A DNA stretch of 64,000 nt from Candidatus Aenigmatarchaeota archaeon (GTDB lineage: Archaea > Aenigmatarchaeota > Aenigmatarchaeia > CG10238-14 > SCSR01). The notes below the pieces were generated by a model. That model was not told the DNA's origin and did not search any database. It was given only the letters and a program-made list of their open reading frames with translations. This document shows, one piece after another, positions 15,996 through 64,000 of the stretch. Made by a program: the position numbers and the translations under genes. The DNA is taken from NCBI GenBank assembly GCA_016187415.1, contig JACPJT010000004.1:17995-81994 (forward strand). Direction: 5' to 3'. Every line of letters begins with the position of its first letter. Position 1 is the stretch's first letter.

Positions 15996-16397
15996 ATGGA
16001 TAAAAAGATTCCTTCCAAGGAAAACCTGATTGAGACCGTCAAGCAGGTTTTGTCCTCCCGCCTGAAAGTCAATTCGCAGGAAGAACTGGCGCGGCTTGTT
16101 CTGAAAAGATTGAGGCGTGAAAATAAGGATTATGCGGTGTCTCCGTTGCGAGCGAAAAGAATCGCCTTGAGCATACCTGAAATTGAAGTAAAGGCGAAAA
16201 CAAGAAAGGCGGTGAAATTGCAGAAGATAAGCGATTGTCCTATATGTCACTCCGGGATAGAGCCGTTGGAAGTCAAGAATCTGGCCGAAAAGAGAGTTCT
16301 GGTCGGGTATCAGTGCACTGGATGCGCATATCAAAGCGATTTGGAAGCATTCATGCCGATGAAGTATGCATTCCTATGGAAAGAAGCTAAACTTTAA
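15996..16397 (+). CDS. Zinc-ribbon protein, unknown function
   Basis: A 133-residue protein. The N-terminal two thirds is basic and helical (ARLVLKRLRRENKDYAVSPLRAKR resembles a nucleic-acid-binding segment). The C-terminal part holds a zinc ribbon with CPICHSG and YQCTGCAYQ. It ends FMPMKYAFLWKEAKL. Copies of this 3' end (ATGCCGATGAARTAY) recur at 17122 and 17695, after each of the following toxin modules. A cytosolic nucleic-acid-binding role is inferred. Confidence 0.7.
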   Translation: MDKKIPSKENLIETVKQVLSSRLKVNSQEELARLVLKRLRRENKDYAVSPLRAKRIALSIPEIEVKAKTRKAVKLQKISDCPICHSGIEPLEVKNLAEKRVLVGYQCTGCAYQSDLEAFMPMKYAFLWKEAKL

Positions 16398-16422: not shown

Positions 16423-16713
16423 ATGAAAAAGGAACAATTTGAAATACCAGAACTAACTAGGGCAAGCTCAAAAGGACAAATAGTAATACCAACTAATGTT
16501 AGGAAAAAGCTAAATATCAAAGAAGGCAGTACTTTTGCAGTGACTTCAAAGAAAAATATAATAGTTTTGAAGAAATTAGATACGAAAATTAAACCCGAGG
16601 ACTTGAGAACTTTAAAACTTCTTGAAGAAGCGTGGAAAGACATAGAAAACGGACGATACAAAAGCGCCACTCCCGATGATTTTTTCAAAGAGATGGCTAA
16701 ATGGAAGAAATAA
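16423..16713 (+). CDS. AbrB/SpoVT-type antitoxin
   Basis: A 96-residue protein with a swapped-hairpin AbrB domain at about 12-35 (SSKGQIVIPTNVRKKLNIKEG), the DNA-binding half, then VLKKL and a helical tail that would hold the toxin. It overlaps the next gene by 13 nt, the usual antitoxin-toxin coupling. It would repress its own operon. It begins just 25 nt after the zinc-ribbon gene. Confidence 0.87.
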   Translation: MKKEQFEIPELTRASSKGQIVIPTNVRKKLNIKEGSTFAVTSKKNIIVLKKLDTKIKPEDLRTLKLLEEAWKDIENGRYKSATPDDFFKEMAKWKK

Positions 16714-16955
16714 CTGAGATAATTTGGACTCAGGATTTTGAGGAAGATTTTAAGAAAATTCGGGATAGAGTAATTCAAGATAGAATCGAAAAACAGATAA
16801 GAAAAATAAAATCCAATCCGAATTTTGGAAAACCTTTGAGATATGGTCTGAAAGGCGAATGGACAATTTATGTCAAGCCGTATAGACTGATTTACAAGAT
16901 TGAAGGAGACAAATTAATACTCTTAAGGTTTGAGCATAGAGATGACGTTTATTAA
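16701..16955 (+). CDS. RelE/ParE superfamily toxin
   Basis: An 84-residue small basic protein. TEIIWTQDFEEDFKKIRDR, IRKIKSNPNFGKPLRYGLKG, and KPYRLIYKIEGDKLILLRFEHRDDVY follow the RelE/YafQ pattern. RelE proteins cleave mRNA on the ribosome; ParE members act on gyrase. The conserved Arg in YRLIYK and the C-terminal HRDDVY support a RelE-like RNase. It is translationally coupled to the AbrB-type antitoxin. Confidence 0.85.
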   Translation: MEEITEIIWTQDFEEDFKKIRDRVIQDRIEKQIRKIKSNPNFGKPLRYGLKGEWTIYVKPYRLIYKIEGDKLILLRFEHRDDVY

Positions 16956-17176
16956 AAGAGGTTGAACATGGGAGATGGATTTGAAGATTTGTTAATAAAG
17001 TGAACAGCCCTTAAAGAAGTTTTGGCTAAACAAAGATGATGAAATCTGGGATAATTATTTGATTATCAGTAAATAATTTGTCGCAAACTATTCTAGAATT
17101 TGACTGGGTATAAAGTTTATTATGCCGATGAAATACGCCTTCCTATTGAGAGATGCTAGAGAAAATGTCTGACCGA
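16956..17176. other. Relic-rich spacer between toxin modules
   Basis: No intact gene. It holds a short frame MGDGFEDLLIK (from 16969), then a frame LNKDDEIWDNYLIISK (about 17028-17077) that resembles the tail of an antitoxin. An AATTTGA...GGGTATAAAGTTTATT element sits at 17097-17121. At 17122-17172 is a 16-codon copy of the zinc-ribbon gene's 3' end (MPMKYAFLLRDARENV, stop). It looks like debris of repeated insertion and decay. Confidence 0.5.
17122..17172 (+). pseudogene. Duplicate of the zinc-ribbon gene 3' end
   Basis: An ATG-initiated frame reading MPMKYAFLLRDARENV with a stop. It matches the end of the zinc-ribbon gene (MPMKYAFLWKEAKL), with mainly synonymous or conservative differences. 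The promoter-like GGGTATAAAGTTTATT abuts it. Probably a remnant of a related gene's end. Confidence 0.5.
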
Positions 17177-17282: not shown

Positions 17283-17639
17283 TCACTTGACACTTTTCTT
17301 AATCCAATTTATGATTTCTTCAAATTTAAGCTTTCCTTCTGATGTATCATGCACCTTGCTCCAAATATCGTTATCCTCCGCTACAAACCTTTTGCCATTC
17401 AGATAAAGAAACGTTTTCATACTTTCTAAACCAGTTCTTTTGTTTCCGTCCACAAACGGATGACTGGTCAGAATACCGTAAAATAAAACAATTGCAGATC
17501 TTTCTATAGTCTTCGGTATTTTCATCTGATTTACAATAAAGTCCAAATTACCATAAGAAAGTATACCACCATGACCACCAGTTTCTTTAATTATATCATC
17601 GTGTATATGAAGAATCTCTTGTGTTGTCAGATATTTCAT
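17283..17639 (-). CDS. doc: Doc/Fic-fold toxin
   Basis: A 118-residue Fic-family protein with HPFVDGNKRTG at residues 60-70, the active-site loop (HxFx[D/E]GNKR). Doc toxins phosphorylate EF-Tu; larger Fic proteins add AMP. The length and the N-terminal YLTTQEILHIHDDII fit Doc. The typical Phd antitoxin is not found upstream; a TATA-like ATTTAAAATT lies before the start. Flanking remnants suggest it arrived with an inserted module. Confidence 0.9.
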   Translation of the reverse strand: MKYLTTQEILHIHDDIIKETGGHGGILSYGNLDFIVNQMKIPKTIERSAIVLFYGILTSHPFVDGNKRTGLESMKTFLYLNGKRFVAEDNDIWSKVHDTSEGKLKFEEIINWIKKSVK

Positions 17640-17694
17640 AATTTACTATTGTCATTTAAAATTAAACATTATTTAACTCGGGATAAAAATTCCA

Positions 17695-17733
17695 ATGCCG
17701 ATGAAATACCCGCTTGTGTATATATCAACTTAG
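17695..17733 (+). pseudogene. Third copy of the zinc-ribbon gene tail
   Basis: The frame MPMKYPLVYIST followed by TAG repeats the MPMKY tail seen at 16353 and 17122. It lies just beyond the Doc gene's promoter. Only about 15-20 nt are conserved, so this is a weaker match than the copy at 17122. Confidence 0.35.
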
Positions 17734-54435: not shown

Positions 54436-54676
54436 GGAAAGCCGACCAGCCAAGCTGGGTATTATGATATTAATTCGCATCACGTATAAGCTCCTATTAG
54501 AAAATATTTAACACTAGTATGAAATTTTTCATAAAAATCTGCCGATTATTATAAACTTTCTTATAACATCTGTCATCACCTAGTTTCAGGAGTTTCTGAT
54601 AATCAGCTTTATCGCAACGGGACATTGTAATTTTTAACTTAATATCTGTCATCATTTAGTTACGGAATAGAAAAGC
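54436..54676. other. Intergenic stretch with two degenerate repeat copies
   Basis: 241 nt. Contains degenerate copies of the 54-bp repeat at 54553-54584 and 54636-54681. Nothing else recognised. AT-rich. Confidence 0.45.
54553..54584. repeat. Degenerate repeat copy A
   Basis: CTTTCTTATAACATCTGTCA with TCACCTAGT matches the first 30 nt of the 54-bp repeat with few changes. The second half-palindrome is altered (TTTCA for TGACA), and the TATA part is missing. Confidence 0.6.
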
Positions 54677-54681
54677 TTATA
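54636..54681. repeat. Degenerate repeat copy B
   Basis: AATATCTGTCATCATTTAGT, then diverged sequence and a final AAAGCTTATA. It keeps the left half-site and the TATA part of the 54-bp repeat but not the right half-site. Its right end overlaps the stop of the leftward wHTH gene. Confidence 0.6.
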
Positions 54682-54964
54682 CAAATTTCTCTCGTGTTTT
54701 CTTTAGTTCATGCACGTAATCAACACCCAATTTAGTCACCGATGCAACTCTACCACTCTTACCATGATCACTAACTAATAATTTGCTTGCCAAATCTCTA
54801 ATAATGGACTGGAAACTTTTCTTAACTCTATACTTGACTGCTATATCAGACCATTTAATTTTTGATGCAATTCTTTCTACTGATGTATAATCCATTCCAA
54901 TTACTCCTTTATCAAACATCCGTATAAGAATCTCATTCTCATAATCTTTCAACATTTTATTCAC
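54677..54964 (-). CDS. Winged-helix DNA-binding protein
   Basis: A 95-residue protein: YENEILIRMFDKGVIGMDYT, SVERIASKIKWSDIAVKYRV, then a wing-like GKSGRVASVTKLGVDYVHEL. Helices and a C-terminal 'TKLGVDYV' resemble archaeal winged-helix regulators. It is divergent from the wHTH gene at 55015, sharing a 50-nt promoter. It may control the repeat-borne promoters nearby (inference). Confidence 0.6.
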   Translation of the reverse strand: MNKMLKDYENEILIRMFDKGVIGMDYTSVERIASKIKWSDIAVKYRVKKSFQSIIRDLASKLLVSDHGKSGRVASVTKLGVDYVHELKKTREKFV

Positions 54965-55014
54965 TTAACTGAATATATAGAGCATTTAAATATATAAAAG
55001 TTACTATAAGTAAT
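54965..55014. promoter_or_regulatory. Divergent promoter between two wHTH genes
   Basis: 50 nt. GCATTTAAATATATAAAAG at about 54990-55008 supplies overlapping TATA-like elements for both genes, each about 10-35 nt from a start codon. The overlap suggests mutual exclusion or autoregulation. Confidence 0.5.
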
Positions 55015-55488
55015 ATGCCTTTAGACCCGTTACACGCCATAGAAAAGATAGAGAAATCTCTGGTCGAAACTAAAAGACCTGTTTCTATAAGTAGATTGGC
55101 AAAGAAGACTGGTTTGCACTATACGACTGTAAGAAGATATGTGACACTGTTGGAGTCTGTGAAAAAAATGCCCGAGATTGAAATAATAAAAGGCGAAGGG
55201 ATTACTTTAGTCAGAACAGAAAAGGATTTTTCAAAACTGTCATCGACAGAAAGAAAAGCTGTAATAAAGTCGTATTTTCCAGAATTATCTATAGAAGAAA
55301 AAGTGTTAGTTAGACTCTTAGAGAGAGATTCCACATCAGAAAGTGGTGCAATAAGTATCAAGAAGGATAAGACAATTAAATCATTATTGAAGGCTGAAAT
55401 AATAAAAGAAACTAAAGATGATAAGGTGTATTTGTCGGGTATAGGATACAAAATTGCGAAAGGTGCGAAAGATATATACGGAAGATAA
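55015..55488 (+). CDS. HTH transcription regulator
   Basis: A 157-residue protein. The N-terminal helix-turn-helix is VSISRLAKKTGLHYTTVRRY (about 23-42) with VTLLESVKKM following. A second winged region near the end has LLKAEIIKETKDDKVYLSGI, then GYKIAKGAKDI. The TGLHYTTVRRYV sequence is like ArsR/MarR-type recognition helices. Upstream of VapBC; the first 54-bp repeat copy starts 21 nt after its stop. Confidence 0.75.
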   Translation: MPLDPLHAIEKIEKSLVETKRPVSISRLAKKTGLHYTTVRRYVTLLESVKKMPEIEIIKGEGITLVRTEKDFSKLSSTERKAVIKSYFPELSIEEKVLVRLLERDSTSESGAISIKKDKTIKSLLKAEIIKETKDDKVYLSGIGYKIAKGAKDIYGR

Positions 55489-55508
55489 AAACAGTTTCTA
55501 TTGCAAAT

Positions 55509-55562
55509 CTTTCTTATAATATCTGTCATCATCTAGTGACAACACTACCATAAAGCTTATAT
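55509..55562. repeat. 54-bp direct repeat, copy C (operator plus TATA)
   Basis: Starts CTTTCTTATAATATCTGTCA and ends CATAAAGCTTATAT. It is identical over 54 nt to copy D at 56168-56221. It contains a palindrome TGTCA-N8-TGACA and a TATA-like AAAGCTTATAT that would drive the vapB-like gene 30-40 nt downstream. Confidence 0.85.
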
Positions 55563-55591
55563 TTAATAAATGGGGAATATAAATTGATTTT

Positions 55592-55777
55592 ATGAAAGGT
55601 GAAATCTATCCTGAACTCGATAAAATAAAAACTGAGATACAGACACTCAAAATTCTCGTTTTAAAGGGTAAAACCATTCCCAAACAGAAGGTTTCTTTGA
55701 AAGGCGTTATTAGGACGAAAATAGACGAGTCTGACATTGAAAAGGCCAAAGCGTCATTGTTCAAAATGAGTGTTTGA
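55592..55777 (+). CDS. VapB-like antitoxin
   Basis: A 61-residue protein overlapping the toxin frame. YPELDKIKTEIQTLKILVLK is a helix likely to dimerise, and the rest is a basic then acidic tail (VSLKGVIRTKIDESDIEKAK) that would wrap the PIN toxin. It does not show an AbrB or RHH domain clearly, so its DNA-binding part is uncertain. Stop and toxin ATG nearly abut. Confidence 0.68.
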   Translation: MKGEIYPELDKIKTEIQTLKILVLKGKTIPKQKVSLKGVIRTKIDESDIEKAKASLFKMSV

Positions 55778-55778
55778 A

Positions 55779-56165
55779 ATGTATGCCACCGATACACACA
55801 GTTTTTTGTGGTTTCTGACGAATGACGGAAGGTTAGGTACCCAAGCAAAAGAAATATTTAATGCCTGCGACAAAGGAGAAACTATTATCTTTATCCCTTC
55901 GATTGTCTTAATGGAATCTTTGGTGATTTGTGAAGATAAAAGGGTTAAATTAGAGTTTACTGAAGTTTTGCAGAAGTTGGAAAACTCTTTCAATTATGTT
56001 GTATACCCATTGGATACTGATGTTGTTTTGGAGTGCTCGAAGATTGAAAAGATAAGGGATCCTCATGATAGGATAATCATCTCGACAGCAAGATTGCTAA
56101 ATGCGAAAGTCATAACAAAAGACGATAAAATCGTGAAGAGCGGATTGGTAGAAACTGTATTCTAA
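55779..56165 (+). CDS. vapC: PIN-domain toxin (VapC)
   Basis: A 128-residue PIN RNase from ATG 55779 (GTG 55770 is an alternative). YATDTHSFLWFLTNDGRLG carries the first Asp, LMESLVICED the conserved Glu, and IRDPHDRIIISTARLLNAKV, with ITKDDKIV, the later acidic residues. VapC toxins cleave tRNA or rRNA. The second 54-bp repeat starts 3 nt after its stop. Confidence 0.9.
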   Translation: MYATDTHSFLWFLTNDGRLGTQAKEIFNACDKGETIIFIPSIVLMESLVICEDKRVKLEFTEVLQKLENSFNYVVYPLDTDVVLECSKIEKIRDPHDRIIISTARLLNAKVITKDDKIVKSGLVETVF

Positions 56166-56167
56166 AA

Positions 56168-56221
56168 CTTTCTTATAATATCTGTCATCATCTAGTGACA
56201 ACACTACCATAAAGCTTATAT
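56168..56221. repeat. 54-bp direct repeat, copy D (operator plus TATA)
   Basis: Identical to copy C at 55509-55562. It lies after the VapC stop and before the surface protein at 56273, with AAAGCTTATAT about 45-65 nt before that ATG. Together the two copies bracket VapBC. Confidence 0.85.
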
Positions 56222-59675: not shown

Positions 59676-61952
59676 CTAGCTCGTGCAGAGGTATTTTGGA
59701 TCCGTGCCGTATATTTTGCTAGTGGACCCTGATGCAGGATAACACTTCGTATCAGCTGTATTGCCAGGTCCTATATTTCCTGTAGTCTGTATACCTTCTT
59801 TCGGGCAACAGTAATTAGGTGTGCAATCTGGATTAAAGTTGCAACCACCGCATACTTTACAGCTATAGAGAGATGAACCTGGTTGATTTATATCAGGCGT
59901 ATTGCACCTTGCATATCTATTTGGATCATATCTGGGGTCGGTTTTTTCTACCACAGATGTGTCGCATGTCTTTCCCAAATTCACGCAAGCGGAGCTTCCT
60001 ATAGGGGTGTTTGCTTTATCTTTTATGTCATTCTCCACGCATTCCACCCCGTCCAGCTTTATGCTCCCCTGCCCGTCTCCTACGCTTGTCCTTTCAACCC
60101 TGATGAGATAGCTCCCGCCGATCTTGCCCGAGCTTACCGCAGACTTTGGAAACGATATTCCAACAGGCGACTTGATAAGCGCCGTGTTGTCATTGCATGC
60201 GGAATCGCTCGTCGAGCATATGAAGAATCTCCAGTCGATTTCTGAAAGCGTGGCATTATACAGCGTGGCCCTGAGATAGAACGCGTCCGAAATAGATATT
60301 CTGAACCAGTCCTCGGTCTGCGATGATGATAATGAGCATGTGGGGAAACTGAGCGGAGCGGATGAGCTTACTGTTCCCAAGTCTACAGGATTGTCAAAAG
60401 TGCCGCATGGTGTTTGCACTGGTGTGGAGGGCGTGGCGAAGGAGAATTCCGATGCGTAGCTGCCGCAGCTGGAGCAGGATGAATCTGTGCATGCTTTTGC
60501 GGACCAGTGATAAGTGGTGGAAAGAGATGTACCAAGTGCCAGCCCTGTATTTGAAGACGAGCAGAAGCCGTATGTCGGGCTGTCCGCGGCCTGAGATGCC
60601 GTCCTCACATAAAATTTGTAGCTTGAAGCCCCTGTAACCGAGGACCAATACAACGATGGGTTTGATGTCGAAACCGATGAACCATCAGTCGGCGAGATTA
60701 ATGTCGGCACTGTCGGAGATGTTGTTGCCGGTGTAGTCGGTGTATACTGGCATATTTTATTGGAGCCGCATGACCATCCGCTGCCCTTGGAGATGGAACA
60801 GTCCAGATCGGAAAGGCATTCGCCGATTGTAAAACTAGTGGAAAAGGACTGGGTGGAGTCCTTGATCAGGATTGTGTTGGATTTCACGCCTGATCCCGCG
60901 TTCTGCGAGCATGTGTACGAGTCCACAGGACAAAGGAATGAAGACAATATGGAGCATGATCCTCCTGTCGTAAGCGTATATCCGTATGCGGCCTGATTTG
61001 CGCAACCGAGCCCGAAGATATTGCAGTTCTTGCCCACTCTGGCGGATGTGATGCTTAAAACGTTCCCGCTAGTGGTCCATGTGTTGCTGAATTCCAAATC
61101 CATGTTGCACAAAGATCCGCCATCCGTGACATATTCGCCTGTTGAAAGAAACAGCGTGGGATCGTCATCGAACTGCACGTCCCTGTAACCAGTGTATGAC
61201 GAGATGGTCTTGTACTTGCCGCCGCTTCCATCCACTGTATCAACTGCCTTGTGAGCGATGGTCACCGTACAGTTATTATCCAGTGTAACTGGATCGGTAT
61301 AAAGAGTTGGTGTCATTGTGCATGCACCTGTAGTAGGAGTTGGATTAGGCACAGGTGTCTGTGTTGAAACGCATGTTCCTGACTGGCATGTCCCCGAACC
61401 GCCTTGCGTAGTCGTGCATGCGCTGCTGTCTGTGCTGCATGATGTTGATGTAGACCATGTGCCGTCTGATTGGCATGTGGCTGTTGCAGTTCCCGCGCAT
61501 GTGCCTGAACCGCACGAGGCGCTTCTTGTCTGACCCACTTGATATGACACGCTATCAAATGCGCATGTTATCGCGGGGGGTGGCGTTGGAGAAATTGATG
61601 TGACGCAGCTCCCGCCTGAACACTGGCCGGATGAGCATAATGATGTGCATGTGTCATCGGCTGTATATTGGGATGTGCCGTCTGAATAAACTGTTAATCT
61701 TTGGCACGCATTCACATAGCTGCACTGGTCGTATGACACAGTCGGCGCTGAAGTGCATATTGCGTCGTCATAACACCAATGCCCCAACGAGTCTGACTGG
61801 CATGATTGCGTTGAAGCGCATGTATACGTATTCTGCGTGTATTCGTCGTAACATGAACCGCCGCAGGTGCTGGCATATCCCGCATCTGCCATTGAATAAG
61901 AAAACAGAACCGCTGATGATATCAGAAATACCATTAATAGACTCTTGTTCAT
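59676..61952 (-). CDS. Large Cys/Ser/Thr-rich secreted protein
   Basis: A 758-residue exported protein. An N-terminal signal peptide (LLMVFLISSAVLFSYSMADA) precedes repeated short Cys-rich segments (CGGSCYDEYTQ; CSSGQCSGGSC; CQSDGTWSTS; CQSGTCVS). A linker PVPNPTPTT separates them from later parts, including a fibronectin-type-III-like stretch (PTLISPTDGSSVSTSNPSLY) and a C-terminal Cys-rich part. It probably acts as an adhesin or cell-surface structure with disulfides. It overlaps the upstream gene by 4 nt. Confidence 0.75.
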   Translation of the reverse strand: MNKSLLMVFLISSAVLFSYSMADAGYASTCGGSCYDEYTQNTYTCASTQSCQSDSLGHWCYDDAICTSAPTVSYDQCSYVNACQRLTVYSDGTSQYTADDTCTSLCSSGQCSGGSCVTSISPTPPPAITCAFDSVSYQVGQTRSASCGSGTCAGTATATCQSDGTWSTSTSCSTDSSACTTTQGGSGTCQSGTCVSTQTPVPNPTPTTGACTMTPTLYTDPVTLDNNCTVTIAHKAVDTVDGSGGKYKTISSYTGYRDVQFDDDPTLFLSTGEYVTDGGSLCNMDLEFSNTWTTSGNVLSITSARVGKNCNIFGLGCANQAAYGYTLTTGGSCSILSSFLCPVDSYTCSQNAGSGVKSNTILIKDSTQSFSTSFTIGECLSDLDCSISKGSGWSCGSNKICQYTPTTPATTSPTVPTLISPTDGSSVSTSNPSLYWSSVTGASSYKFYVRTASQAADSPTYGFCSSSNTGLALGTSLSTTYHWSAKACTDSSCSSCGSYASEFSFATPSTPVQTPCGTFDNPVDLGTVSSSAPLSFPTCSLSSSQTEDWFRISISDAFYLRATLYNATLSEIDWRFFICSTSDSACNDNTALIKSPVGISFPKSAVSSGKIGGSYLIRVERTSVGDGQGSIKLDGVECVENDIKDKANTPIGSSACVNLGKTCDTSVVEKTDPRYDPNRYARCNTPDINQPGSSLYSCKVCGGCNFNPDCTPNYCCPKEGIQTTGNIGPGNTADTKCYPASGSTSKIYGTDPKYLCTS

Positions 61953-62347
61953 ATTTTTATCGCCTCTATCTTGCTTCCGTCTGCAGACGTCTTGACATCA
62001 ATCTGCTTCACAGGCGTGCCGTCCCTTGATGTGACCGCTTTACTCAGGTAAACCGTGAAAATCCATCCTCCGCCTCCCTTGTTGACATTCAGGACCTCCC
62101 CCGGATAACTTTTTAGCACTGTAGTTGATGCGACTTGGCATACTTTTGTCTCATTTGTGAATCTGACGCAGGGTGAAATTATTCCGCTGGATGCGGCTTG
62201 GGACGACTTGTAAAGGGAAGTGACATAAAACGCAAAACCAAAAGCTATGACAACGCCGACGACAAGGATTATTATCTGATACACGTGAATGGGAAGCTTC
62301 CTGTTAATTTTTGAAATGGCGTCGCGTCTTTGGTTTGATTCGGGCAT
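61949..62347 (-). CDS. Single-pass membrane protein
   Basis: A 132-residue protein. After a basic start (NQRRDAISKINRKLPIHVYQ) comes one helix IIILVVGVVIAFGFAFYVTS; the rest is an outer domain with YPGEVLNVNKGGGGWIFTVY and VKQIDVKTSADGSKIEAI. The stop overlaps the ATG of the secreted protein by 4 nt, so they are coupled. The 31-bp repeat (62355-62385) directly precedes its start and supplies its TATA. Confidence 0.7.
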   Translation of the reverse strand: MPESNQRRDAISKINRKLPIHVYQIIILVVGVVIAFGFAFYVTSLYKSSQAASSGIISPCVRFTNETKVCQVASTTVLKSYPGEVLNVNKGGGGWIFTVYLSKAVTSRDGTPVKQIDVKTSADGSKIEAIKI

Positions 62348-62354
62348 TACATAG

Positions 62355-62385
62355 AATTTGATTTCGGGGGGTATAAAGTTTATTG
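62355..62385. repeat. 31-bp direct repeat, copy 1 (contains promoter)
   Basis: Identical to 63221-63251: AATTTGATTTCGGGGGG then TATAAAGTTTATTG. On the minus strand it reads as a promoter (CTTTATA) for the gene at 62347. It overlaps the 3' end of the C39-like gene by 6 nt. Confidence 0.9.
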
Positions 62386-62820
62386 GATTGGTTTTAGATA
62401 ACCTGCCTTGTTTCTTCTTTTATTCCATAATCTCAAAAGTTCCATTTTCTTGTAAGTAACAATTCCTCTCTCAGGATCATGAAATACGACTGTATCATTT
62501 CTTATATCAGTGACCACTCCCACGTGCCCCATATTTTTCTTTTCTTGCTCTATATCAATGCTTACTATAACCGGTATTCCTAATTTTACCAAGTTTGCCA
62601 ATTCATCATAGGACATATGTCGTTTATGTATCAATTCGAATCCAATTGCCTTTATTTCTCTTTCCGCTATTTCCCAAATGGTGCCGTGTACTGGTGTCGC
62701 CTTTAGAAGGATTCTTAAATCGTGTTCAGATTTTCTAATTCCATAATACTCCAAAACCATTTTGGCACAAGTTGCAAAACAGCTGTACCAAAATTCCTGC
62801 TTATAGTAGGGGACTTTCAT
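62380..62820 (-). CDS. C39-like papain-fold peptidase
   Basis: A 146-residue protein. YKQEFWYSCFATCAKMVLEY gives oxyanion Gln8 and nucleophile Cys14; MGHVGVVTDI gives His99; VVFHDPERGIV gives Asp115. The order Q-C-H-D matches C39 peptidases, usually processing domains of bacteriocin exporters. Here it is free-standing, with no signal or TM segment, and overlaps the upstream RHH gene by 20 nt. That coupling resembles an antitoxin-toxin pair. Confidence 0.82.
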   Translation of the reverse strand: MKVPYYKQEFWYSCFATCAKMVLEYYGIRKSEHDLRILLKATPVHGTIWEIAEREIKAIGFELIHKRHMSYDELANLVKLGIPVIVSIDIEQEKKNMGHVGVVTDIRNDTVVFHDPERGIVTYKKMELLRLWNKRRNKAGYLKPIQ

Positions 62821-63220
62821 TATTACCGGTTAACTCTTTTGCCGTTTGATGTATTTTTTTTGGAGAATCAGAAATAGATTCATTGATTTCTAAACTCTGG
62901 CAATCAACAAAAATATGACCATATGTATAGAATTTCCCTTGATAAAATCCCGTTACTGGAACCTTATAATAATCCTTTGAGTTTATCACTGCATGTAATG
63001 GTGTTCCTGAAGATAGAATATCACCAACATAATCGGTCAGATATGCGTTCACTTCAGCTCTTGCTTCTTCCATGTTTCTAATTTCCTCCTTTGAGAATTG
63101 GAGTAACCTCTCTAAGCTTACCCGTATAACTTGATTTCTGTTAGAAAATAAGCCTTCCTTTACAAGTTCGTCCACCTTTTCCAAGTCTTGCTCCTGCAAT
63201 TCTATTTGCGCCATATCCAT
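62801..63220 (-). CDS. Ribbon-helix-helix protein with C-terminal extension
   Basis: A 139-residue protein. QIELQEQDLEKVDELVKEGL, FSNRNQVIRVSLERLLQF is a ribbon-helix-helix DNA-binding domain (about 4-45). The C-terminal 80 residues (SSGTPLHAVINSKDYYKVPV; FYTYGHIFVDCQSLEINES) are of unknown fold, longer than in simple CopG antitoxins. It overlaps the C39 gene. The second copy of the 31-bp repeat lies directly upstream of its ATG, supplying the promoter. Confidence 0.78.
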   Translation of the reverse strand: MDMAQIELQEQDLEKVDELVKEGLFSNRNQVIRVSLERLLQFSKEEIRNMEEARAEVNAYLTDYVGDILSSGTPLHAVINSKDYYKVPVTGFYQGKFYTYGHIFVDCQSLEINESISDSPKKIHQTAKELTGNNESPLL

Positions 63221-63251
63221 AATTTGATTTCGGGGGGTATAAAGTTTATTG
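63221..63251. repeat. 31-bp direct repeat, copy 2 (contains promoter)
   Basis: Identical to copy 1 at 62355-62385. It is the immediate upstream sequence of the RHH gene ATG on the minus strand. The two copies bracket the RHH-C39 module. Confidence 0.9.
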
Positions 63252-63325: not shown

Positions 63326-63577
63326 CTATTCATAAATACTTTCTCTTTTCCCGATTTTGTAAACAATAATACTCATGCCTTCCAAATAAAACAAGATTCT
63401 CAAATCTCCTACTCTCAACCTGTAATGATTCTGATAACCTTTCAGCTTCTTAATATCCAAGGCGAAAGAGAAACCATCTTCCAAAATCTTCAATTTCTCC
63501 TTTATTCTAGCTTTTAATTTTCCAGAGAACCGCTCCAACTCTCTAGAGACCTGCTTTTCAACAAATACCTTGAACAT
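63326..63577 (-). CDS. RelE/ParE superfamily toxin
   Basis: An 83-residue toxin. FVEKQVSRELERFSGKLKAR, IKKLKGYQNHYRLRVGDLRI, and LFYLEGMSIIVYKIGKRESIY match RelE: the YRLRVGDLRI strand and the C-terminal KRESIY carry the basic catalytic residues. Its ATG abuts the antitoxin stop. Probably cleaves mRNA on the ribosome. Confidence 0.87.
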   Translation of the reverse strand: MFKVFVEKQVSRELERFSGKLKARIKEKLKILEDGFSFALDIKKLKGYQNHYRLRVGDLRILFYLEGMSIIVYKIGKRESIYE

Positions 63578-63784
63578 TTATTTCAGCTTGCTAAGAGGAA
63601 TCAATTCTAATTTTCTTTCTTTCCTTACTTTTTCGAATTCCTTTATGGCATTTGCTTCTTCTCTGCTTGGTGATTCCGTGCCTACTACCCTGTTTTCAAC
63701 CAACATAGAAACCCTTCTCAATTCATTTCTTATTGATTTAAGTTCGTTCATTAAATAATTCGGTTTTAGTTTTTCTTCTCTCAT
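63578..63784 (-). CDS. Antitoxin partner of the RelE-like toxin
   Basis: A 68-residue, highly charged, helical protein: NELKSIRNELRRVSMLVENR, SPSREEANAIKEFEKVRKER. No clear DNA-binding motif. Gene order and abutting stop-start with the RelE gene identify it as the antitoxin. A TATA-like TTTATAAA lies about 25 nt upstream. Confidence 0.72.
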   Translation of the reverse strand: MREEKLKPNYLMNELKSIRNELRRVSMLVENRVVGTESPSREEANAIKEFEKVRKERKLELIPLSKLK

Positions 63785-63914
63785 GTAAATTAACTATTTT
63801 TCAATGTTTATAAAATTTACGAAATGTGAATAGAAGATGCGCAAAGGATTTTCAACTGATTAAGTCTGATGTCCATTGGCATAAAGTTTATACTGCGTAA
63901 CGCATAGAATAATT
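63785..63914. promoter_or_regulatory. Divergent spacer, RelE module / secreted protein
   Basis: 130 nt. TTATAAAC-type sequence serves the leftward antitoxin gene. Rightward, CATAAAGTTTATACTG at about 63880-63895 lies 20-35 nt before ATG 63915 and resembles the AAAGTTTAT core of the 31-bp repeat. Confidence 0.4.
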
Positions 63915-64000
63915 ATGAGATATCTTGTATTTGCGTTGTTTCTCTATTCGCTGATCGGGATTGCATACGCCGGCCCGAATGACAAATGGGTTTACATAGG
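63915..64000 (+). CDS. Exported protein, N-terminal fragment
   Basis: A frame entering the right edge: MRYLVFALFLYSLIGIAYAG, then PNDKWVYI. The first 20 residues form a signal peptide with a likely cleavage after AYA. The rest is beyond the window. Confidence 0.6.
   Translation, partial: MRYLVFALFLYSLIGIAYAGPNDKWVYI

Follow-up and report, generated by a model that had tools for sequence, protein, structure and literature searches.

Duplicated host sequence brackets a minority of toxin–antitoxin modules, and a TA-like RHH–C39 peptidase gene pair, in an archaeal phylum

Introduction

Toxin–antitoxin (TA) modules are well known to be mobile, and bacterial superintegrons contain TA cassettes; how a bare two-gene module enters the chromosome usually goes unexplained. 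Integron gene cassettes, small units lying in arrays with repeats between them, are reported also from archaea including Aenigmatarchaeota (PMC9668308, among whose references TA content is cited). Archaeal integrated elements of the SSV and pNOB8 types, as in a survey of Thaumarchaeota (PMC6563490), have direct repeats at both ends, target the 3′-distal parts of protein genes, bring a new stop codon with the incoming tail and can be inserted in tandem, with att sites cited there as 29–69 bp for Crenarchaeota. Type II TA modules and the COG2856/Xre (ImmA/ImmR) pairs of Makarova et al. 2009 (PMC2701414) consist of two overlapping genes for a DNA-binding partner and an enzyme, patchily distributed; in the main text of that paper, ‘C39’ and ‘direct repeat’ each have 0 occurrences.

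The locus described here, in a 64,000-nt stretch of an Aenigmatarchaeota genome (the window), and its counterparts elsewhere share these features with each system and depart from each. As in the integrated elements, attL/attR-like direct repeats restore the target gene; unlike in those elements, the unit is only ~0.5–0.9 kb long, with two genes and neither an integrase nor any other mobility gene, and promoters are used as targets too. The repeats differ from those of integron cassettes in being host gene or promoter sequence, specific to the site, and the pair differs from COG2856/Xre pairs in that its enzyme is a C39 cysteine peptidase. The bacteriocin exporters PCAT1 and ComA have the same C39 fold with invariant Q/C/H/D residues, whereas the C39 protein here is stand-alone, intracellular and RHH-paired, and no double-glycine substrate was seen. 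The footprint hints at TA movement without a recombinase of its own and offers a testable route, in which orphan gene ends would log each insertion, its source lineage and the order of events, and would reveal insertions in genomes that lack relatives for comparison. RHH–C39 would add a protease-type candidate to the addiction modules.

Results

An exact promoter repeat at both ends of the RHH–C39 pair

The features of the locus, in window coordinates, are:

61949..62347, minus strand: gene of a 132-aa membrane protein; in genome G001 its relative stands divergent to the gene at 63915
62355..62385, no strand: first copy of the repeat, forming the membrane-protein promoter/leader and containing the C39 stop codon
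62380..62820, minus strand: C39-family papain-like peptidase, 146 aa, without transporter domain (Pfam C39_2, 4.7e-14)
62801..63220, minus strand: RHH protein, 139 aa, with an RHH_8 N-terminus (Pfam E 1.7e-6); probable start at the second ATG, 63214
63221..63251, no strand: second copy of the repeat, forming the RHH promoter/leader and ending flush with the first ATG of that gene
63326..63577, minus strand: ParE-like toxin of a second inserted module (PF05016, E 5.2e-4, 21 bits, below the cut-off of 23)
63578..63784, minus strand: probable partner of the ParE-like toxin, in antitoxin position, 68 aa, without family match
63881..63891, no strand: third TATA core (ATAAAGTTTAT), oriented towards the rightward gene
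63915..64000, plus strand: rightward small gene (MRYL.., 63 aa), start only, extending beyond the window; adjoins the membrane-protein gene in G001

The two repeat copies are identical at 31/31 nt, with no one-base extension possible at either side; when one mismatch is allowed the match lengthens to 35 nt with a score of 32, where Markov shuffles (one copy per source, 21 sources) reached 16 at most. From shuffles of the window, the expected count of the 22-nt core of the repeat is 0.00; its 27-nt core, at no more than 3 mismatches, has two occurrences in the whole genome (735,003 bases). An earlier note on this DNA had claimed perfect 31-bp direct repeats at both ends of the module, a TATA box before each leftward gene and the retention of a promoter by both transcription units after insertion, all of which is borne out, with one repeat copy per unit. 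The fit is in fact closer than that note described: copy 2 directly adjoins the first ATG of the RHH gene, and copy 1 takes in the stop codon of C39 (62380–62382).

The TATA element is 26–28 nt (about 27 nt) upstream of the second RHH ATG and of the membrane-gene ATG (62347); the repeat ahead of both units has an ATAAA-C-TTTAT inverted core. TATA-like hexamers across the genome peak 26–30 nt before ATGs (42/162 matches, from 270 ORFs of at least 120 aa), and TATA-to-ATG spacing of this kind is typical of leaderless archaeal promoters. As the note had also stated, no possible recombinase gene is found among the ORFs between the repeats, where RHH and C39 stand alone. A transposon with target-site duplication was considered and rejected: no transposase ORF is present at the module and no inverted repeat at its ends, and the length of the duplication varies between sites.

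The site is unoccupied in a congener

The membrane-protein gene has a relative in the congener G001 (39% identity, E 5.7e-9), where this relative and the MRYL gene are divergent, with 63 bp and just one near-palindromic TATA element between them. The same two starts are 1,567 bp apart in the window; RHH–C39 and the ParE-like pair occupy the interval, and the TATA core is found at 62373, 63239 and 63881. The right flank aligns with G001 at a score of 115 (maximum of 46 in 200 shuffles). The left-flank alignment, at 54, equals the shuffled maximum of 54, so that the case on this side rests on the protein and on gene order; the membrane gene was found in G001 and its own genome alone among 57 genomes searched.

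Insertion at the RHH–C39 locus is well supported. The proposal in the earlier note that the module had been inserted and the promoter duplicated is supported, and the relative without the module that it suggested seeking exists in G001, where one TATA element is common to two divergent genes. Its picture of a single inserted module holds for RHH–C39 and fails for the locus as a whole, which contains two modules, the ParE-like pair having been missed. No convincing bracketing repeat was found around the ParE-like pair in the window.

A C39 peptidase with a DNA-binding partner

The C39 protein scored 53.6 bits against PF13529 (cut-off 24) and 47.4 bits against PF03412 (cut-off 22). Residues Q8, C14, H99 and D115, which we take to be the catalytic residues, are invariant in 4/4 aligned sequences, and the structure model (pLDDT 91.3) matches the peptidase domains of PCAT1, ComA and PeiR, with a weaker likeness to papain-like toxins from toxin/immunity pairs. 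The model of the RHH protein (pLDDT 57.8) was too poor for structure search. Its C-terminal domain is common to C39 partners elsewhere (alignment of 4), in which this part is kept and the RHH part lost or absent; the partner in G003 carries a second copy of it. Our guess is that it may be a PepSY protease-inhibitor domain: PepSY matched only 1/4 relatives, at E 0.045, which is below cut-off.

The pair fits the layout of type II TA modules, with small, co-directional genes overlapping by 20 nt and one product DNA-binding, and fits their patchy distribution with unrelated flanks. C39 may be the toxin and RHH its antidote, and the pair could act by addiction. To our knowledge C39 is not an established type II toxin, and PADLOC returned no match for either protein. 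On an Ignavibacteriales contig (L025, 482–1229) a stand-alone C39 gene is overlapped by that of a 111-aa partner. This partner may resemble the C-terminal domain of the RHH protein, the hhalign match being weak (probability 10%, E 0.003).

Relatives of the pair in other settings

Full-length C39 relatives were detected in 2/56 other genomes, at three places with differing neighbours (G003:C3, G002:C1 and G003:C2). At one RHH–C39 relative (L047) the upstream gene, named gatE by eye, has its 3′ end repeated as a 59-nt, 92% copy, so that the module is bracketed. No convincing bracketing repeat was found at G003:C3 or G002:C1, that is, at 2/4 RHH/C39-type modules. The upstream regions of the relatives in G003 and G002 are unlike the window repeat, and on this ground the repeat was rejected as an intrinsic property of the RHH–C39 module. 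Conservation of the module beside unrelated flanks had been expected by the earlier note to count against insertion; the flanks are unrelated, and the insertion claim is not weakened by it, since relatives with unrelated flanks point to a mobile module.

Further bracketed modules in the window and nearby stretches

The promoter repeat is not, as had been assumed, special to RHH–C39; other TA modules are bracketed by promoters or by gene 3′ ends. The earlier note read a true insertion footprint largely correctly, although as the property of one module, and is partly supported. Features of two such regions of the window are:

16353..16389, no strand: 3′ end of a zinc-ribbon-like gene (15996–16397), repeat copy 1 (37 nt, 84%, score 19)
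16423..16955, plus strand: AbrB/MazE-type antitoxin with ParE toxin; G001 and G002 are also occupied at this site
17098..17158, no strand: orphan copy of the zinc-ribbon-like gene 3′ end (MPMKYAFLLRDA.. vs MPMKYAFLWKEAKL), also copy 1 around Doc
17283..17639, minus strand: Doc/Fic toxin gene (Fic E 1.8e-11)
17671..17709, no strand: weaker repeat copy beyond Doc (39 nt, 79%, below the score cut-off)
55505..55562, no strand: 58-nt repeat copy 1, ahead of a VapBC-like module (98% identity, score 55)
55592..56165, plus strand: VapBC-like module, with a 61-aa partner without family match and a PIN toxin (E 3.8e-12)
56164..56221, no strand: 58-nt repeat copy 2, overlapping the PIN stop codon

A first, unbiased repeat scan took in the window together with 20 stretches, from contig C2 and ~190 kb of G003, at a score of at least 19, the shuffled maximum being 16. 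It returned brackets around VapBC (55505/56164), RHH–C39, AbrB–ParE (16353/17122), a PIN gene (L039), the gatE–C39 relative (L047) and L054. The last was rejected as a TA case, its 70-aa ORF having no antitoxin family match. Doc is weakly bracketed by direct repeats.

Around the VapBC-like module, the region 54546–56221 holds four related repeat copies, at 54553, 54629, 55505 and 56164. The interval from copy two to copy three contains two divergent HTH genes, and that from copy three to copy four contains VapBC. The PIN gene at L039 (12149–14725, G000:C2) has a 115-nt, 99% repeat around it and a second, 49-nt repeat outside; Rfam returned nothing on this repeat region.

Bracketing across the phylum

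Tested loci were mostly the best-scoring ones rather than a random draw (58 ParE, 34 small PIN, 30 HicA, 30 L7Ae and 15 large PIN). At a score of at least 19, 13/58 ParE, 5/30 HicA and 3/34 small PIN loci were bracketed, against 0/30 L7Ae and 0/15 large PIN loci, the 45 housekeeping controls. Compared with these controls (Fisher's test), enrichment is clear for ParE (p = 2.9e-4), suggestive for HicA (p = 0.008, with L252 included) and not established for small PIN (p = 0.076). L252 was rejected on inspection, its repeats being paralogous HicB genes, and still stands inside the 5/30; also retained are L169, among the 13 ParE loci, which may be tandem modules with a common promoter, and L268, a 20-nt A-rich repeat, among the five HicA loci. 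Looser cut-offs admitted one large PIN locus at 17 or above and 2/45 controls at 15 or above. Markov-shuffled ParE loci gave 0/570 at 17 or above, while the bracket rule held for 146/12,000 random 300-bp intervals (1.2%) and for 86/2,127 shifted intervals in the same loci (4.0%).

Repeat lengths across loci range from about 20 to 115 nt, and the sequence differs from site to site. The motif pair of integron attC sites is RYYYAAC...GTTRRRY; an attC-like pair occurs in 0/24 repeats, and the integron cassette was rejected as an identity for these units. A recurring insertion footprint, formed in each case of its own host sequence, is present around a sizeable minority of TA modules in this archaeal phylum.

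Origin of the footprint

The reading we prefer, and consider somewhat probable, is that RHH–C39 is a mobile element that entered by recombining over a short region shared with its target, and that the same footprint surrounds other TA modules. The pair would be a TA-like module, a protease with a DNA-binding partner, which would have entered a formerly common divergent promoter beside a second, ParE-like module, the 31-bp repeats being the footprint of that insertion, a copy of the target at either end. Recombination would take place at a stretch common to the incoming DNA and the target, such as a promoter or a conserved gene 3′ end. The incoming DNA would be either a small circle or a fragment whose other end is joined illegitimately. 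The gene tail or promoter brought by the module would keep the gene that was hit functional, the native tail or promoter piece would be left stranded behind the module, and addiction would then hold the module in place. Both the recombination step and the absence of a dedicated recombinase are inferred.

Plain target-site duplication, in which fill-in of a staggered break and its joining to captured DNA would give direct repeats of variable length (22–115 bp) that later decay, is in our judgement unlikely. It needs no enzyme gene, and it would account for a repeat sequence that is different at every site and for window repeats flush with the module ends. Identical pairs are among the most similar repeats (L161, 86/86; L166, 34/34; L276, 32/32; also the 31 nt of the window), an outcome that plain duplication would give as well. 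What speaks against it is the tail in use at one locus, L163 in G082, where the host gene ends EIGRELKILD and the orphan copy behind the module ends EIGEEIDRIERK. The EIGEE tail is found in 5/5 congener genomes that have the gene (G117, G089, G044, G037 and G074) and EIGR tails in other families, which indicates that the tail in use was imported and the native, genus-type one stranded; the tail of G089, EIGEELGILD, ends in the same letters as the supposed foreign tail. The gatE alleles (genus VKS, orphan VRS, gene in use VKG) are a weak sign of import, at one residue. AbrB–ParE occupies the same gene in the window, G001 and G002, with a decayed orphan tail particular to each, and is absent in G003; the host tail in use matches that of G003, so import is not shown at this site.

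Codon changes also bear on duplication. Codon differences in 11 coding repeats numbered 17 synonymous and 16 non-synonymous, where 20% synonymous would be expected (P = 6e-5), and without L260 there were 10 of each (P = 0.003). The frame of L260 was chosen by hand, the automatic one (1 synonymous, 14 non-synonymous) having been rejected as wrong for the host tail. A synonymous excess is expected from divergence before insertion, and not from neutral decay of a stranded copy. Taken together, the foreign tail and the synonymous excess appear to favour import by recombination over plain target-site duplication.

Still less credence is given to a tyrosine recombinase acting in trans, which would integrate tiny integrase-less elements and leave the repeats as attL/attR. 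Repeat lengths and foreign tails fit what PMC6563490 gives for archaeal integrated elements, but the module has no integrase, the repeats of the different sites have no common core, and promoters serve as targets besides gene ends. It is very improbable that the repeat is an RHH operator/promoter through which RHH controls its own and the membrane-protein unit, with identity kept by selection or conversion: an exact repeat with its inverted core before both units is what this predicts, but the upstream regions of RHH/C39 relatives are dissimilar, and the repeats of other modules fall in coding ends, which could not sensibly serve as operators.

Recombination of this kind, with illegitimate joining at the other end, would correspond to homology-facilitated illegitimate recombination, for which a literature search in combination with toxin–antitoxin systems returned 0 papers; nor, judged by titles and the opening of abstracts, did the papers listed include a description of TA modules bracketed by duplicated host gene ends. 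As a wider proposal, offered tentatively, TA modules may spread among these small-genome archaea as cassettes without a recombinase, each carrying a short piece of a conserved gene end or promoter at which it would recombine in a relative, swapping in its own copy so that the gene remains functional, and kept by addiction; repeated rounds of insertion at one site could build arrays with orphan fragments between the modules.

Other repeats recovered by the scans

In G002 and G056 a second scan covered 20 stretches and showed no TA bracket among the best six matches per stretch. At L058 (11543–14324, G002:C1) a 60-nt, 85% copy of a gene 3′ end brackets a ResIII helicase–methyltransferase fusion, likely a defence gene. 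The remainder of the first scan comprised repeats within or between related coding sequences, together with a reverse-transcriptase locus, L042 (7448–9709; G000:C2, ~183,448–185,709). Here a reverse-transcriptase ORF (PF00078, 7.9e-19) lies beside near-identical repeats, the second of them within a 280-aa ORF; the differences between the copies are A-to-G on the coding strand, a pattern that presumably reflects a diversity-generating retroelement.
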